64,000 nucleotides of DNA from an uncultured Myxococcales bacterium (GTDB taxonomy: Bacteria; Myxococcota_A; UBA9042), in the NCBI GenBank assembly GCA_903842345.1, contig CAIMLR010000036.1, forward strand, positions 62,001 to 126,000, read 5' to 3'. The notes below the pieces were generated by a model. The model was not told the DNA's origin. It saw only the letters and a list, made by a program, of their open reading frames with translations, and made no database searches. The translations under genes and the position numbers were made by a program. Positions within the stretch are counted from its first letter, which is position 1. Each line of letters starts with the position of its first letter. Positions 1-55,279 of the stretch are shown piece after piece.

Positions 1-468
1 AAGTTGCACGCGCGCCGCGGGGTCATTGCCCGCTTCGTCAATCGCCTCGTTGGCTTCCATCACCTGCATCAGCAGCTGCGCTGGCGGCCGATACCGTTCG
101 TCCAGATTCTCGCCGGCGAGGGTCAGCACATACGCCGCGCGCTGCTCCAGCGTCTTGAGGCCGCGCCACGCGTCATTGACCCGCGAAGAATGCGACTGCG
201 CCTTGGCGACGGCTTGCGGCCCCTGCGCGTGGAAGCGATCCGGGTGCAGGCCGCGAATGAGGCTGCGGTGGGCGATTTCAATGGCGTCCGCGTCCAGCAG
301 GATGCGCTGCGGCAGGCCGAGGATGGCAAAGTGGTCGGGCTCAGGCTCACCGGGCAACGGCTGGCGATCCAGATCGACCGCGCCCGTCTGCGGATTGACG
401 ACCCAAGGCCGCACAGCGCGCGGCGCGTCGGGAGAGTCCGCGGCAGGGTGGTCAAATTGCTCGGCCAT
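1..468 (-). CDS. hscB: HscB-type J-domain co-chaperone (partial, runs off the left edge)
   Basis: This is the N-terminal 156 residues of an Fe-S co-chaperone; the 3' end lies outside the window. The family stimulates the HscA ATPase and delivers cluster-loaded IscU to it in the cytoplasm. The J-domain HPD tripeptide is at about residues 75-77 (context GLHPDRF). It is followed by the HscB-like stretch LKTLEQRAAYVLTLAG and the start of the C-terminal helical domain that binds IscU (LLMQVMEANEAI). About 40 residues precede the J domain. The ATG at 468 lies 22 bases after the iscA stop, and the gene is last in the visible iscR-S-U-A-hscB series. hscA and ferredoxin are expected further left but cannot be seen. 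Confidence 0.9.
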   Translation of the reverse strand, partial: MAEQFDHPAADSPDAPRAVRPWVVNPQTGAVDLDRQPLPGEPEPDHFAILGLPQRILLDADAIEIAHRSLIRGLHPDRFHAQGPQAVAKAQSHSSRVNDAWRGLKTLEQRAAYVLTLAGENLDERYRPPAQLLMQVMEANEAIDEAGNDPAARVQL

Positions 469-490
469 GGCGGATTGTCCGGGACGGAGG

Positions 491-811
491 TCAGGCAGCG
501 AACGACGAGCCGCAGCCACAACTGGCGGTGGCGTTGGGATTCTTGAAGACGAAGCCCTTGCCGTTCAAGCCGCCTTCAAAGTCGAGCGTGGTCCCGTCCA
601 GAAAGACGAGGCTCTTGCGGTCGACGAAGATCTTGGGGTTCTCGCCAAAGACGCGGTCGCCGAGGCGGGCTTCTTTCTCAAAGTCGAGCACATAGCTCAA
701 CCCGGAGCAGCCGCCGCCGGTGACGCCGACGCGAATGCCGGACAGCTCGACGTTGGCTTCTGCGGCAACAATCTTCAGGCGGTCAATGGCGCTTTCAGTG
801 ACGACGATCAT
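491..811 (-). CDS. iscA: IscA/HesB-family iron-sulfur cluster assembly protein
   Basis: A-type Fe-S carrier of 106 residues, the usual family length. The three cluster-ligand cysteines are visible: Cys35 in GGGCSGLSY, and Cys98 and Cys100 in the C-terminal CGCGSSF. Such proteins accept clusters from IscU and pass them to apo-targets. Its place between iscU and hscB makes IscA the natural assignment, although ErpA has the same signature and cannot be excluded from sequence alone. The gap to iscU is 17 bases, consistent with one transcript. Confidence 0.93.
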   Translation of the reverse strand: MIVVTESAIDRLKIVAAEANVELSGIRVGVTGGGCSGLSYVLDFEKEARLGDRVFGENPKIFVDRKSLVFLDGTTLDFEGGLNGKGFVFKNPNATASCGCGSSFAA

Positions 812-2490: not shown

Positions 2491-2892
2491 CTACAGCTGC
2501 GCCAGCGTCATCGTTTCGAGCACTTTCATGACCGCGTCGTTCAACGTGTCCAGCGGACTCTTGATCTCGCAGCCTTCCAGCCGGCTGCACTGGCCCATCA
2601 GGTCGCCCTGCTGACACGGTGCGATGTGCTGCTCCCCGTCCAGGATGCGCACAACTTCCGCGACCGTAATCAACGCCGGCTCGCGCGCCAGCCGGTAACC
2701 GCCCATCTTGCCCATCGACGCGTCCACCATGCCCGCCGTCACCAGCTTGGCCATGACTTTCGGCGTCAGATCCTGCGGCAGGTGATACCGCTCCGCGAGC
2801 TCACGTGCGGACAATGAATCGCCCGTCGGCAGGCCGCTCAGCGCCTTCAAGGCGACGAGACCGTAGTCTGCTTTGCGGGAAAGTCGGAGCAT
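2491..2892 (-). CDS. iscR: IscR-like Rrf2-family Fe-S sensing repressor
   Basis: Winged-helix regulator of 133 residues. The start chosen is the ATG at 2892, giving MLRLSRKADYGLVALKALSG, the canonical Rrf2 N terminus; the frame stays open further upstream but without family similarity. Three cysteines near the C terminus (93, 102, 108) are the likely cluster ligands. The first two are separated by 8 residues instead of the 5 in E. coli IscR. It is first in the isc series, and family members repress this operon when Fe-S supply is adequate. A promoter with an overlapping dyad lies just upstream (2939-2967). Confidence 0.92.
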   Translation of the reverse strand: MLRLSRKADYGLVALKALSGLPTGDSLSARELAERYHLPQDLTPKVMAKLVTAGMVDASMGKMGGYRLAREPALITVAEVVRILDGEQHIAPCQQGDLMGQCSRLEGCEIKSPLDTLNDAVMKVLETMTLAQL

Positions 2893-2938
2893 CAGCGTTC
2901 GTCCCTGGGGCGGCTTCAAGTCCGACCATCCAAGTCGC

Positions 2939-2967
2939 AGATTAGGACTCGTCCGTTTGAGTGTCAA
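2939..2967 (-). promoter_or_regulatory. Candidate isc operon promoter with overlapping dyad
   Basis: Read on the minus strand, TTGACA (2967-2962) is followed after 17 bases by TAATCT (2944-2939), which can serve as a vegetative promoter about 47 bases before the iscR start. Within it lies an interrupted dyad ACTC-N8-GAGT (plus-strand 2947-2962), where an autoregulatory IscR/Rrf2 dimer would be expected. The -10 match is weak; the perfect -35 and the position are the main support. Confidence 0.4.
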
Positions 2968-3038
2968 CGCCAAAGTGTCGCGACGGCCATCCCGTGTCAC
3001 GGTTTTGTCAGTCTGTGCGGCATGTTGAGGTCGACGGA

Positions 3039-3068
3039 TTGACACCCTGTGGCTGTCATCCCTATACC
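3039..3068 (+). promoter_or_regulatory. Candidate sigma-70 promoter of mrp
   Basis: TTGACA at 3039-3044 and TATACC at 3063-3068 are separated by 18 bases (or CTATAC with 17). The element lies about 50 bases before the mrp start and is among the best consensus matches in the window. It is divergent from the isc promoter about 70 bases away. Confidence 0.6.
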
Positions 3069-3119
3069 GCCGCGCTGCTGCGCTTGGCGCCGCCACAACG
3101 CGATACCCGGGAGAAGACG

Positions 3120-4211
3120 ATGCCCTTGAGCCACGACGACGTGATGGAAGCCCTCTTGACGGTGACGGAGCCCGACCTCGGCCAGGATCTCGTCTCGGCC
3201 AAGCTGGTCCGAGACATGGACATCAGCGATGAAGCGCTGGCCGTGACGATCGCGCTGACGACGCCGGCGACGCCGCACAAGGAGCGGATCCGGGCGCTTG
3301 TCGAAGGGGCGCTGCGGCCGTTGCTGGGTCGCCGCAAGCTGTACCTGACGCTGCAGGCCGATGCGCCGCAGGGTCGCTCCAAGCTGCCCAATGTGCGGCA
3401 TGTGCTGGGTGTCGGCGCGGGCAAGGGCGGCGTGGGCAAGTCGACGGTCGCGGTCAACATCGCGCTGTCGCTGGCAAAGGCGGGCGCCAAGGTCGGCCTG
3501 CTGGACGCTGACGTGTACGGTCCGAGCGTACCGATCATGCTGGGCCTGAAGGGCCATAAGCCGGTAGTCAACGCCGATCGCAAGATCGTGGCGTTCGAGG
3601 CGCACGGCATCCGCTGCATCTCGATGGGCTTCCTTGTCGGCGAGGATACGGCGGTGGCGTGGCGCGGCCCGATGGTCGGTCGCGCGGTGCAGCAGTTCGT
3701 GGAAGACGTGGATTGGGGTCCGCTGGATTACCTCATCGTCGATCTGCCCCCGGGCACGGGCGACGTGATCCTGAGCCTGTGTCAGGCGCTGCCGCTGACC
3801 GGCGCGGTTGTGGTCTCGACGCCGCAGGACGTGGCGTTTGCCGACGTGCTGCGCGCGGTGAAGATGTTTGGGATGCTGAAGGTGGACGTGATCGGCCTCG
3901 TCGAGAACATGAGCTACTTCCGCTGCCCGGACAACGGCAAGGACTACAACATCTTTGGCCCGAGCCACAGCGAAGACCACTGCAAGGCGCAGGAGCTCGA
4001 GTTCCTCGGTCAGCTGCCGATCGATCTGGCGCTCTCCGCGAATGCCGATGCCGGTCGCCCGATCGTCGCCGCTGAGCCCGACGGCATGCTCGCTGAAAAG
4101 TACCGGCAGATTGCGGGCCGCGTGGCATCCAAGCTGGCCGTGCTGGCGTTTGCCGCCGAGAAGACGGAAGCCGGCGGTGAAGGTTTCTTTGGCGCGCGTC
4201 CCAGCGCCTGA
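3120..4211 (+). CDS. mrp: Mrp/ApbC-family P-loop ATPase, Fe-S cluster carrier
   Basis: Protein of 363 residues. The first 90 residues form a MIP18/DUF59-type domain, followed by a deviant Walker A GKGGVGKS at 101-108, LLDADVYGPS, and IVDLPPGTGD (switch/Walker B region). Family members bind and transfer [4Fe-4S] clusters. The start at 3120 has GGGAG nearby. Oddity: the usual CxxC near ENMSYF reads Cys-Pro-Asp-Asn here, so Cys269 is kept and the second ligand is Asn272; another cysteine follows about 20 residues later (SEDHCKA). Divergence from the isc genes fits an Fe-S role. Whether this variant still bridges a cluster between subunits is uncertain. Confidence 0.93.
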   Translation: MPLSHDDVMEALLTVTEPDLGQDLVSAKLVRDMDISDEALAVTIALTTPATPHKERIRALVEGALRPLLGRRKLYLTLQADAPQGRSKLPNVRHVLGVGAGKGGVGKSTVAVNIALSLAKAGAKVGLLDADVYGPSVPIMLGLKGHKPVVNADRKIVAFEAHGIRCISMGFLVGEDTAVAWRGPMVGRAVQQFVEDVDWGPLDYLIVDLPPGTGDVILSLCQALPLTGAVVVSTPQDVAFADVLRAVKMFGMLKVDVIGLVENMSYFRCPDNGKDYNIFGPSHSEDHCKAQELEFLGQLPIDLALSANADAGRPIVAAEPDGMLAEKYRQIAGRVASKLAVLAFAAEKTEAGGEGFFGARPSA

Positions 4212-4428
4212 ACGCCGTGACATCCGCATGACAGACGCCCGCGCCCCTTTCGCGCGAGGACGCTTGATTCCGCGGAGTTGGCGCAAATCGGACCAGCAGA
4301 ACGTCTTGACCAACGGTGGAAATCGTCGTTAGCTGACTCCACGGTTGTGCATCACATCGCCCGTGCGGCGAGCGGCCAACCGGATCGCGTGAACCAAACA
4401 CATGTTCCATGTGATGGAGGATCCGCCC

Positions 4429-4668
4429 ATGCATCTGATGCACGTGAATGAAGACGCCTTGAAGATCAAGCTGCGCAAGGAAGACCCGGAATACGCGGAG
4501 TTGGAACTCGCGCACCGGAGGCTGGATGACCAGTTGATGCGCTATGAACTCCACGTCTACCTGAGCCCGGAGGACGAACAGACGCGGCGCGAATTGCAGA
4601 AGAAGAAGCTGGCGCTCAAGGACCAGTTGGCGGCGATGCTGGAGCGGGAAGCCGCGCACGTGAACTGA
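4429..4668 (+). CDS. DUF465 (YdcH-like) small helical protein, copy 1
   Basis: Acidic/basic helical protein of 79 residues. Of three in-frame ATGs (4402, 4414, 4429) I choose 4429, because GGAGG at 4416-4420 sits 8 bases before it. The family pattern is present: a leading EDPEYAELELAHRRLDDQL helix, a loop, then LQKKKLALKDQLAAML, matching the KxxRLxLKDEL ending of DUF465. The family's function is not established. A paralogue lies at 57005-57253. The next gene, mazG, is convergent with no spacer: this TGA ends at 4668 and the mazG stop begins at 4669. Confidence 0.75.
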   Translation: MHLMHVNEDALKIKLRKEDPEYAELELAHRRLDDQLMRYELHVYLSPEDEQTRRELQKKKLALKDQLAAMLEREAAHVN

Positions 4669-51911: not shown

Positions 51912-53336
51912 ATGCTGAAACTGGCCCTGGCAATGGCGACGCTGCTGCTGTTTGGCTGTGCAACGGGCGCGGTCCGCCAGACGCGCGTGGCGCCGCTCGC
52001 GCAGTATGACGGCGTGCGGGCGGTGCGGGTCGTGGCGACGGAGCCGGATTCGCAGATGGCGGCGGAGCTCGTGGCCGGCGCGCGCGTCGGGCTGCCCAAG
52101 GCCGGCTGGCGCATGGCCAATGACGGCGAGCCGGCGTACACGCTGGAGCTGCACATCGCGGAGGCGCAGACGCCCGTGGCCGCGGAAGCGTCGCTGGAAG
52201 ACCAGATTCTCGGCGGCATGGCGACGTTTGGCGGCTTTCGCAATGCCGATCGCGGGCTGCTGGAAGTTGAAGCGACGCTGCGCGGTCCCGATGGCGGTGC
52301 TGCGCTCGGCGCGTCGCGTTGGCAGGCGGTCGGCGCACCGGCGAGTCTGGCGGGGACTGCCGGCATCGACCTTGGACGCGCCGTGGGCAAAGCGATGACG
52401 ACACAGCAGAGCGAGTGGTATCCGCGCCGCGGCGCCGACGAACGGCTGTTTTTCACGCCCACCGCGCGCACGGTTCCCGACGGCGCATTCGTCCTCAGCG
52501 ACGATGAAGCGCTGCTCGTCCGGGCCGCGTATGGCATCACACGGCGCCTGCAAATCGACCTTTGGCTCGGTGGCCTGCCCGTCCCGGCCGTCGGCGGCGG
52601 CGCCCTGCCCCTGCCCGGCGCGATCGTCGCGGGCGGCGGTGGCGGCGGCGCACTTTTTGGCATCTTCGACCTCGGCCTCAAGTTCGTCGCGCTGGAAGAA
52701 ACCCGCACGCTGCCCGGCATCGCGATTTCCTACGACATGCTCGACGTCTTTGGCACCGCGATCGGCGGCGGCGGCGGCGTGGGCATCGGCGGCAGCGGTC
52801 TGGGCGGCGCTGGCTTCGTGGGCATCGGCGGCGCCAACGCGCAGTTCAACCTGTTCACGATCACCGCCGGCAAGCACTTCAGCAGCGGCACGCAGGTCAC
52901 GCTCGGCGCCTGGCTGCTGGACAACCACGCGTACCTGCCGCAATCCGCGCACTTCACAGCGGCGTGCGGCGTTGCAGGTAGCACCGGCACGACGTCGGGC
53001 GCGGCGATGACCAAATGCAGCGGCGGGGCGGATCTCCCGCATCTCCCGCTGCAGTTCCAGAGCTTCTTTGGCGTGGAGCAGATTCTCAACGACAGTTGGT
53101 CGGTCGCCGTGGAAGTCCTGCCGCGCAATCCGCTCAGCAACACGATGTGGACCACCGGCGTGCGCTGGCTGCCGGGGAGCGACGCGCCCGCGGGCTTTGT
53201 CGCGCTCGATCGCATCAAGCCGCGCATTGATCTCGCGCTTGCGTGGATGATCCTGGAGGCCAACGCGGATGCTGGCCGTCCGCACGCTTCGCCCGTGTAC
53301 TTTCCGTGGATTGGCGTTGGACTCTACGTGTGGTGA
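51912..53336 (+). CDS. Lipoprotein with a beta-rich, probably outer-membrane-associated domain
   Basis: Lipoprotein of 474 residues, 9 bases after the ABC-F gene; lipobox LLLFGC. Residues 25-170 form an alpha/beta domain (RVVATEPDSQMAAELVAGARV, YTLELHIAEAQ). From about 190 there are alternating strands with glycine-rich turns (IAISYDMLDVF, GGGGGVGIGGSG, FNLFTITAGKHFSSGTQVTLGAW, DSWSVAVEVLPR) ending in an aromatic residue (GLYVW), suggestive of a porin-like barrel. A lipobox with a barrel-like ending is unusual. No family recognised. The last 13 bases overlap the end of the convergent GH25 gene. Confidence 0.65.
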   Translation: MLKLALAMATLLLFGCATGAVRQTRVAPLAQYDGVRAVRVVATEPDSQMAAELVAGARVGLPKAGWRMANDGEPAYTLELHIAEAQTPVAAEASLEDQILGGMATFGGFRNADRGLLEVEATLRGPDGGAALGASRWQAVGAPASLAGTAGIDLGRAVGKAMTTQQSEWYPRRGADERLFFTPTARTVPDGAFVLSDDEALLVRAAYGITRRLQIDLWLGGLPVPAVGGGALPLPGAIVAGGGGGGALFGIFDLGLKFVALEETRTLPGIAISYDMLDVFGTAIGGGGGVGIGGSGLGGAGFVGIGGANAQFNLFTITAGKHFSSGTQVTLGAWLLDNHAYLPQSAHFTAACGVAGSTGTTSGAAMTKCSGGADLPHLPLQFQSFFGVEQILNDSWSVAVEVLPRNPLSNTMWTTGVRWLPGSDAPAGFVALDRIKPRIDLALAWMILEANADAGRPHASPVYFPWIGVGLYVW

Positions 53337-55279
53337 ACGCGGCCGCGCCGACGCAAGAGCAACGCGCTCGCGAACAGCGCGCCCAGGAGCCAGCCGCCGC
53401 TGCCTGCACGCCGTCCCGCGGTGCAACCCGATGAGGCCACGCCCCCGCCGCCAAAGTACTTCACGTCTGACTTGCTGCCGTCGCCGCTGATGCCCGCGCT
53501 GTCGCCGATCGCGCCCGCGTCCGCCACGACGTCGAGCCCGACCGTGCCGTCCGCCATCGCGTCCTTGCCGCTGCCGCCATCCTTGCCGCTGCCGGTGTCG
53601 CCAGGGCCGCCGACGTCGCTCTCGCCGACGTCCGTTGCGCCGGCGTCCGGCACGCTGCTCTGCGTCATGCACTTGCCCAGATAGCAGACCAGCCCGCTGG
53701 CGCAGTTCTTGTCCGGATCCCAGCCCAGGCAGCCGCCGACGCCTTTTTGGCACGTGTGGTAGCTCGCGCCGCCGACGCATGCGCTGCTGTACAGCTTGAC
53801 GCACGTGTCGCTGCAGCCGGCGCCGCCGACGCACGCGCCGTTGACGCATTGCAGGCCGGTGGAGCACGGGCAGTCGACGCAGCACGTCTGGTTGGACTCG
53901 TCGCCGGCGCACTGGCCGTCGCCGCAGACCGAGACGCAGGTGTGGTTGGCTGTGCACGTACCGCCGCCGATGCAGTCCCAATTGGCGTTGCACTGGACGC
54001 ACTGGCCGGTCGCCACGTTGCAGACGTTGGGGCACTGGGCGTCGGCGGTGCAGCCGCTCGGTCCGCCGCCGGCGTCGAACTGGAAGATGTCCAGGCTGCC
54101 TGCGTCCTTGGCGCACGGTCCGCAGTCGGTGGCGCAGTTGCCGCACGTCTCCCCGCTGCCGCACGTGCCGTCGCCGCAGTAGCCGGCGCAAGGGCCGCAA
54201 TCGGCAGGACAACTGCTGCACGTCTCGGCCGAACCGCACGTGCCGTCGCCGCAGACGTCGGAACACGGGCCGCAGTCCGTGGCGCACGTCGTGCAGTCCT
54301 CCGTGCCGTTGCAGCTGCCGTCTCCGCAGACTGGCGCGGCGGTGCAGTCGGACGCTTCCCAGGTGCAGAAACCGCCGCAGTCGCAATAGCCGTCGTTGCC
54401 GTAGCCGCACGCGTTCGCCGTTGTGCAGCACGGATCGGTGCCGGTGTAGCCCGGGCAATTGGGCGCGGCGCAGACGCCCGCTTGGCACGATTCGCCGTTC
54501 GCGCACGGGCAATCGCCGGGACACGAACTGCAGTCTTCCGCGGCGTCGCACGTGCCGTTGCCGCATGCGTTGGCTGGACCGCTGCCGCCGCCGGCAAAAG
54601 TCTGGAGCGAGGCGAGGTCGCCGTTCCACAAGTTCATGTCGCAATCGCCGCTGACGCCCGCGACGGTGCCTTTGTCGTCGTATTGCCAGATGACCCAGTC
54701 GGTCCAGGGCTCGGGAATCTTGGGGCAGCAGTTGGTGCAGTAGTAGGATTCCCAGAGCGGCAAGCCGGCCTGCGCCGCGCTGTTCACGCTCGGGTCCCAG
54801 AACCAGTTGCCCGTGTAGACGACCGGCGCGACGCCGAGCTTGGCCTGCACGTAGTCCACCCACTGCTGGACCGCTGCTTCCACTTCCGCAGGCGTCAGCC
54901 CGCCGGTCGCTTCCACGTCGAGCGTCGGCGGCAACATGCCCGCTTCCATCGGACCCATCTTGTTCAGCAGGATGTCAGCCTGGGCGATCGGGTCCTCAGC
55001 CGGTTCAAAATACTGGTAGGCGCCGCGGATCATGCCGTTGGCCTTGATGTCTGGCCAGTAGCTGTCAAACCACGTGTCGAGGTACGTGCCGTCGCTGACG
55101 CGGGCGATCACAAACTGCTGGCTGCCGGCGACCTGCGTCCAGTCGACGGCGCCCTGCCACTTGGAGACGTCGATGCCGGGCGTGGTGGTGCCGGCGGCGC
55201 AGACGGTTGGACCGGCCAACGCCGCGCTGCTGACGAGGAGACTGCCGAGCAGGCTGAGGATAAGACCGTGTCGCATCAT
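53324..55279 (-). CDS. GH25-type lysozyme with Cys-rich repeats and MYXO-CTERM-like tail
   Basis: Exported protein of 651 residues. Signal peptide, then a GH25 muramidase domain (about 30-235): PGIDVSKWQGAVDW, FVIARVSDGTY, IRGAYQYFEP, and the catalytic LDVE in PPTLDVEATGG; it closes with WQYDDKGTVAGVSGDCDMN. Four repeats of the type CGDGxCxxxExCxxCxxDCGxC follow (CGNGTCDAAEDCSSCPGDC), then further Cys modules and an Asp/Gly linker. The C terminus has SSGC, a hydrophobic helix (GGWLLGALFASALLL) and RRRGR, the plan of MYXO-CTERM sorting signals. Predicted to cut peptidoglycan at the cell surface. Confidence 0.85.
   Translation of the reverse strand: MMRHGLILSLLGSLLVSSAALAGPTVCAAGTTTPGIDVSKWQGAVDWTQVAGSQQFVIARVSDGTYLDTWFDSYWPDIKANGMIRGAYQYFEPAEDPIAQADILLNKMGPMEAGMLPPTLDVEATGGLTPAEVEAAVQQWVDYVQAKLGVAPVVYTGNWFWDPSVNSAAQAGLPLWESYYCTNCCPKIPEPWTDWVIWQYDDKGTVAGVSGDCDMNLWNGDLASLQTFAGGGSGPANACGNGTCDAAEDCSSCPGDCPCANGESCQAGVCAAPNCPGYTGTDPCCTTANACGYGNDGYCDCGGFCTWEASDCTAAPVCGDGSCNGTEDCTTCATDCGPCSDVCGDGTCGSAETCSSCPADCGPCAGYCGDGTCGSGETCGNCATDCGPCAKDAGSLDIFQFDAGGGPSGCTADAQCPNVCNVATGQCVQCNANWDCIGGGTCTANHTCVSVCGDGQCAGDESNQTCCVDCPCSTGLQCVNGACVGGAGCSDTCVKLYSSACVGGASYHTCQKGVGGCLGWDPDKNCASGLVCYLGKCMTQSSVPDAGATDVGESDVGGPGDTGSGKDGGSGKDAMADGTVGLDVVADAGAIGDSAGISGDGSKSDVKYFGGGGVASSGCTAGRRAGSGGWLLGALFASALLLRRRGRVHHT

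Follow-up and report, generated by a model that had tools for sequence, protein, structure and literature searches.

The closest described counterpart of the protein examined here is TraA of Myxococcus xanthus, a MYXO-CTERM protein sorted by MrtX, in which a signal peptide and a functional N-terminal domain are followed by Cys-rich repeats, proposed to form a stalk, and by a C-terminal tail made up of a Cys, a helix and an Arg cluster (PMC3325183, PMC11980579). Vibrio surface proteins of the GlyGly-CTERM/rhombosortase type likewise combine a tripartite C-terminal tag with type II secretion (PMC11980579). Here we describe a gene for a GH25 muramidase that shares this layout, located in a 64,000-nucleotide stretch of DNA (hereafter the window) from an uncultured lake myxobacterium (assembly GCA_903842345.1, contig CAIMLR010000036.1, positions 62,001 to 126,000), the genome assembly of which is ~96% complete.

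The comparison also brings out differences. Unlike TraA, the muramidase is an enzyme rather than a PA14 receptor, its tail has a single-Cys SGCxAG signature instead of GCGC and lies below the detection of TIGR03901 (the standard MYXO-CTERM model), its genome encodes an MrtP-like rather than an MrtX-like protease, and its gene is coupled to that of a partner. From the Vibrio proteins it differs in signature, protease family and substrates. The GH25 catalytic domain, with its acidic residues, is that of Cellosyl from Streptomyces coelicolor (1jfx), whereas the solved Cellosyl chain has neither stalk nor sorting tail. The partner is predicted to have the fold of netrin-like (NTR) domains such as those of TIMPs, agrin NtA and PCOLCE1 (Z 8-10, rmsd ~3-4 over 102-109 residues) but, unlike them, it is bacterial and muramidase-linked and lacks both a detectable sequence family and the N-terminal Cys. 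A literature search on myxobacterial GH25 proteins or muramidases and predation found no sorted GH25 among the titles. Two of the observations reported below go beyond an earlier, sequence-only reading of this DNA, namely the co-translated gene for an exported partner and the failure of TIGR03901 to find the muramidase tail.

A GH25 muramidase with a Cys-rich stalk

The sequence-only reading had described a GH25 muramidase with four CGDGxC repeats and a tail consisting of SSGC, a hydrophobic helix and an Arg cluster, and each of these elements was confirmed (Table 1). PF01183 scores 124.1 bits against a gathering cut-off of 27. The catalytic residues are complete: D37, D121 and E123 are invariant in 14 relatives, as is Cys619 of the tail, and the domain aligns with Cellosyl and further solved GH25 muramidases, the three residues falling in the region of what we take to be D9, D98 and E100 of Cellosyl. 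The fold agrees, in that Foldseek returned 19 matches with E<=0.001 for the muramidase model, by title GH25-type lysozymes or endolysins, and the TM score against 1jfx is 0.86 by target. Confidence in this AlphaFold model is high for the barrel and mostly low elsewhere. The N-terminus (MMRHGLILSLLGSLLVSSAALAG) was called as a signal peptide from the sequence and a predicted helix at residues 2-19 rather than by a dedicated predictor.

There are exactly four CGDGxC units and a fifth, degenerate one (CGNGTC, residue 239); regular 25-residue spacing is limited to the units at 318, 343 and 368. The protein has 64 Cys residues in total. Among the 14 relatives the modules between the GH25 domain and the tail are Cys-rich but quite different from one another, and the pattern of conservation indicates that selection preserves the enzyme and the tail while the stalk is free to vary. 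The tail reads SSGCTAGRRAGS, then the helix, then RRRGRVHHT, with SSGC(619)TAGRRAGS ahead of the helix, which the model places at the C-terminus with a pLDDT of ~38-62.

Table 1. Positions of the muramidase gene, its parts and the partner gene in the window
Feature	Residues	Window position	Strand	Remarks
GH25 muramidase precursor	651 aa + stop	53324..55279	(-)	ATG start; ORF spans exactly these positions
Sec signal peptide (predicted)	~1-23			
GH25 catalytic domain	36-209	54653..55174	(-)	PF01183
Cys-rich stalk	~239-540			
Stretch with CGNGTC/CGDGxC units	239, 318, 343, 368, 452	53909..54565	(-)	
Acidic/Gly-Ser linker	~541-615			
C-terminal sorting tail, MYXO-CTERM-like (predicted)	616-651	53327..53434	(-)	SSGC(619)TAG, helix 629-648, RRR
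Exported partner	164 aa	55276..55770	(-)	TGA overlaps muramidase ATG (ATGA, 4 nt)

A convergent gene (51912-53336, plus strand) overlaps the 3' end of the muramidase gene by 13 nt; its product looks like an exported protein.

The tail recurs in the genome alongside sorting machinery

TIGR03901 (cut-off 20 bits) gave no report of the muramidase tail at E<=10, whether by hmmscan or in a search of the whole genome. Since the tail is below the detection of this model, we class it as a variant rather than a standard MYXO-CTERM member, and a profile built from the genome's own tails replaced TIGR03901 as the test. For cases that score poorly with the general MYXO-CTERM model, its original authors applied a species-specific one (PMC3325183).

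In the genome TIGR03901 makes 41 matches at E<=10, which supplied the carriers for this profile; 8 of the 41 exceed the cut-off. Each candidate was read in frame for a C-terminal position, Cys, helix and Arg, and at least 25 proteins have true C-terminal tails; the 25 picked by eye include 6 over the cut-off, and 16 matches were dropped. Two of the latter exceed the cut-off: in C27:77737 the motif is internal and C30:19078 is without a helix. Most of the 25 carry [SG]GCxAG, with a single Cys instead of GCGC, and carriers have the layout of the muramidase tail, with an Arg cluster at the C-terminus, after the Cys and the helix. Their hydrolases comprise an Amidase_2 protein (N-acetylmuramoyl-L-alanine amidase), three subtilases, three matrixins, an M64 peptidase and a polysaccharide deacetylase, and a GH15-like protein and four DUF2330 proteins are further carriers. 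The expectation in the sequence-only reading that the muramidase would share its tail with other proteins of the genome is thus borne out at least 25 times over.

The profile built from these 25 other carriers gives the muramidase tail 36.6 bits; shuffling its own C-terminus 2000 times yielded at most 10.6, and no other of the 322 ORF segments of the window exceeded 7.7. Among the matches listed, the tails of other GH25 proteins scored 29.3, 28.5, 22.8, 19.6, 18.7, 16.1, 9.1, 7.6, 6.2 and 4.7 bits.

In two loci, L082 (G000:C27:71737-78120) and L059 (G000:C44:50056-56487), a tail lies inside a longer open frame, and its Arg run leads straight into an apparent second signal peptide and a further exported domain. 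These are apparently natural polyproteins. An internal MYXO-CTERM motif of this kind is known in MXAN_5598 (PMC11980579).

The genome encodes five CPBP proteins, and the myxosortase core model gives one of them (contig C2) 111.4, over its cut-off of 100. This protein is nearest to MrtP over nearly its full length and has EExxxR and HxxxN, the motifs described in MrtX (PMC11980579). Moreover, 46 of 52 related genomes have a protein above the cut-off of the core model. The type II secretion genes gspC, D, E and F all exceed their cut-offs and are clustered on the window's own contig. Hence the processing machinery that the sequence-only reading proposed to look for is represented by an MrtP-like myxosortase and gspCDEF; together with the other carriers and the invariant Cys619, these bear out its MYXO-CTERM-like tail. 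From the sequence evidence we conclude that the muramidase carries a predicted MYXO-CTERM-like sorting tail, and that the resemblance is not due to chance.

Tailed GH25 proteins in Myxococcota

A scan of named genomes with a GH25 alignment left 80 loci, of which 38 were grouped as Myxococcota-like by record title (with 'Deltaproteobacteria' records and a few of vague label counted in) and 42 came from other phyla; at least 6 of the 38 are contigs already met in the earlier locus search. The tail was present on 26 of the 38, 23 by a fixed rule and 3 by eye (L091, L097 and L102), and at none of the 42 loci from other phyla. Two of the remaining Myxococcota-like proteins (L094 and L095) end in a helix-less tag, described below; the rest are taken up in the next section.

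By a crude regular expression, a lipobox-like N-terminus occurs in 23 of 38 Myxococcota-like GH25 proteins outside the window-type family (a set of 38 different from that of the tail count) and in 3 of 13 within it (family f1), where the matches look spurious, lying upstream of the start or inside the signal core. Several proteins have both a lipobox-like N-terminus and a C-terminal tag (L099, L108, L110, L113, L114, L119, L121, L126, L031 and L032). It is suggestive only, but GH25 proteins of other Myxococcota families may often have an N-terminal lipobox where the window's family has the partner instead.

In L113 ('Deltaproteobacteria'), upstream of position 2902, the start of a tailed GH25 gene overlaps the gene for an exported 337-residue protein by 4 nt. 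The latter has VVIDAGHGG at its mature start and looks amidase-like, so that two wall hydrolases apparently are coupled here.

A candidate route to the outer surface

These results suggest a model whereby the muramidase is displayed by its producer on its own outer surface. The window and the genome provide the parts (export signal, muramidase, stalk, tail, myxosortase, secretion genes and partner), from which every step of the route is inferred; its first four steps are modelled on the published MYXO-CTERM route of M. xanthus TraA (PMC11980579). The signal peptide would direct Sec export, and the C-terminal helix would insert transiently in the inner membrane, leaving its Arg cluster on the cytoplasmic side. 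Cys619 would then be lipidated and the helix removed by the MrtP-like myxosortase, after which type II secretion would carry the folded muramidase to the outer leaflet. There it would cut foreign peptidoglycan, from prey, competitors or debris, at the tip of a disulfide-rich, replaceable stalk. Surface anchoring as such is well supported by the sequence comparisons, and the route as a whole is probably correct.

Several observations weigh against it. Besides the silence of TIGR03901, four of the GH25 tails score within the range of the shuffles (L020 9.1, L027 7.6, L032 6.2 and L031 4.7) and three of the 14 (L022, L028 and L030) are not among the matches listed for the own-genome profile. In the scan of Myxococcota-like loci, 7 of the 38 GH25 proteins are without the tail and 3 of the 38 run off the end of the contig. 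The C2 myxosortase is under every equivalog cut-off (MrtP 185.5/250, MrtC 115/195, MrtX 87.3/180), and the four pseudopilin-type genes beside gspCDEF are weaker, with scores below their cut-offs. Finally, we know of no lipid enzyme for the MYXO-CTERM tag.

In a rival reading the tail would be an uncut, plain membrane anchor that keeps the muramidase at the inner membrane, facing the periplasm, where it would remodel the cell's own wall. TIGR03901 misses the tail, an Arg-flanked helix can simply anchor a protein, and an amidase bears the same tail. However, a plain anchor would not call for a Cys conserved without exception in 14 relatives, this genome has a myxosortase and 46 of 52 relatives exceed the cut-off of the core model, and the 64 Cys and long disulfide-rich stalk suggest an extracellular life. 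We therefore consider a plain anchor improbable.

If the muramidase does face outwards, it cannot reach its producer's own wall, so foreign walls or debris are its likely substrate. Contact-dependent lysis of prey or competitors, which the sequence-only reading had put forward, is a plausible putative role. Alternatively, a surface muramidase may let its producer feed on the wall debris and dead cells of the lake water instead of killing live neighbours on contact. The other carriers of the tail are indeed general degradative enzymes (proteases and a deacetylase), and a lone muramidase is unable to cross the outer membrane of a live Gram-negative cell; on the other side, a partner suggestive of self-protection suits a potent enzyme, and the data at hand fit contact killing equally. 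Scavenging instead of killing is in our view possible, if less likely than not.

A co-translated partner with a predicted netrin-like fold

Homologues of the exported partner lie directly upstream of the muramidase in all 13 GH25 loci of the window-type family (window/L015, L016-L022, L025-L028 and L030; in L019 the tail end is beyond the contig stop). The junction is a 4-nt overlap in 11 of the 13, a 1-nt overlap in L022 and a 13-nt gap in L021. When its profile was run against 7353 ORF segments (the fetched loci and the window), only these partners and named duplicates were recovered; in this search no partner adjoined the untailed GH25 of L035 or the tailed GH25 proteins of other families.

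R58, D80, W84, C94, C100 and P116 are invariant in the partner. It has no credible Pfam match, and no NTR or TIMP family was reached at E<=10 by the 8 members and 2 more that were searched; its profile likewise found nothing credible among the sequences of solved structures (best E 0.16). Its AlphaFold model (pLDDT 89) was more informative. Foldseek ranked TIMP and NTR chains first, at a best E of 4.8e-3 and with none at E<=0.001, and VIA-align gave Z scores of 10.0 for agrin NtA, 9.2 for N-TIMP-1 and 8.5 for N-TIMP-3, with unrelated rows at ~6; PCOLCE1 and agrin NtA are among the top matches beside the TIMPs. The fold is thus predicted to be netrin-like (NTR/TIMP). A search of the literature on bacterial periplasmic netrin-like or TIMP proteins found none.

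What might such a partner do? The folded enzyme must cross the producer's periplasm, and the partner is made first and goes to the same compartment; on these grounds we suggest, tentatively and at well under even chances, that the NTR-fold protein binds the muramidase in the periplasm as a guard (inhibitor) or escort. Three points tell against this. The partner is absent beside GH25 proteins of other families, so the enzyme can work without it. It also lacks the N-terminal Cys of the TIMPs, only Cys94 and Cys100 being invariant, and in the TIMP metalloprotease inhibitors it is the mature N-terminal Cys that binds the metal. Lastly, a shared fold by itself shows no function.

With inhibition left aside, the partner may instead be an accessory subunit that binds the wall, or an escort in folding or secretion, which we put at somewhat under even chances. 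Its upstream, co-translated position fits such a role, as do its absence beside GH25 of other families and the varied proteins bound by animal NTR folds, agrin NtA and PCOLCE1 being top matches alongside the TIMPs; type II secretion substrates, however, seldom have escorts.

Elsewhere in the genome, the tailed product of L053:226-2709 (minus strand, contig C47) contains HEEGHFFGAQH, a zinc site of the metzincin type. Upstream of this metalloprotease gene, at L053:2713-3354 (minus strand), lies that of an exported 214-residue protein loosely like the muramidase partner, a kinship that profile comparison does not support. The idea that NTR-like partners go with tailed hydrolases in general was dropped, the profile comparison with the C47 neighbour giving a probability of 1.3.

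A helix-less GCGC tag in relatives

Two of the GH25 relatives, L094 (JAOAFA01; 2875-4527) and L095 (DYEF01; 206-1873), have an acidic linker that ends in SSGCGC[VS]IIE-stop, with no helix. A frameshift might have hidden a helix after this tag, and was rejected because the three downstream frames contain no Arg-flanked one. In the downstream frames of all 20 proteins that carry such a tag (see below), a hydrophobic 15-mer is present in some, with a mean of up to 2.63.

The tag takes the form [SG]GCGC-x-hydrophobic-[LIV]-x-stop and occurs in 20 proteins of genomes G052 and G053 (L094, L095 and 18 in L283-L300). At the DNA level the pattern GCGC-x4-stop has 8 matches in G052 and 17 in G053, against 0 and 1 in a reversed control, and 20 of these 25 are C-termini of acidic-linker proteins. 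Although left free in the pattern, positions -3 and -2 are hydrophobic in 20 of 20, with L, I or V at -2 in every case. An N-terminal hydrophobic signal is visible in 18 of the 20, and the domains (GH25, amidase, matrixin, papain-like and phosphatase) are the same kinds of cargo as in MYXO-CTERM proteins. In each of the two genomes the sole CPBP protein scores above the myxosortase core cut-off (117.9 and 109.6). Both lack helix-bearing MYXO-CTERM tails; TIGR03901 found nothing in G053 and a single match in G052 at E 1.31. In G379, of the same class (3 genomes), the pattern occurs once versus 14 times in the control, and four TIGR03901 matches are over the cut-off. The tag does not appear to be general to the window's phylum, as a narrower E-stop pattern stayed at control level in the 377 genomes searched, of which 31 gave hits.

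A literature search on C-terminal tags found no helix-less one in titles or abstracts, and the GCGC C-terminus looks like an undescribed helix-less tag. There is, we estimate from these sequences, nearly an even chance that myxosortase-served Cys tags need no membrane helix and that this one is an exported bacterial counterpart of the CAAX box. In eukaryotes the CAAX box is trimmed by Rce1, a protease homologous to myxosortase.

Discussion

Across much of Myxococcota, our results place muramidases among the likely cargo of a recently characterised route of surface sorting, and they show that the standard tail model undercounts cargo in this lineage. The enzyme-partner pair bears on the question of how a Gram-negative cell may get a wall-cutting enzyme, already folded, across its own periplasm unharmed.

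If myxosortase-served tags can indeed do without a helix, the tail of the muramidase would be the long variant of a Cys tag that is more general. Whether lipidation or cleavage comes first in the myxosortase route is listed by its discoverers as still to be settled (PMC11980579), and the helix-less tag, if confirmed, would bear directly on this point.

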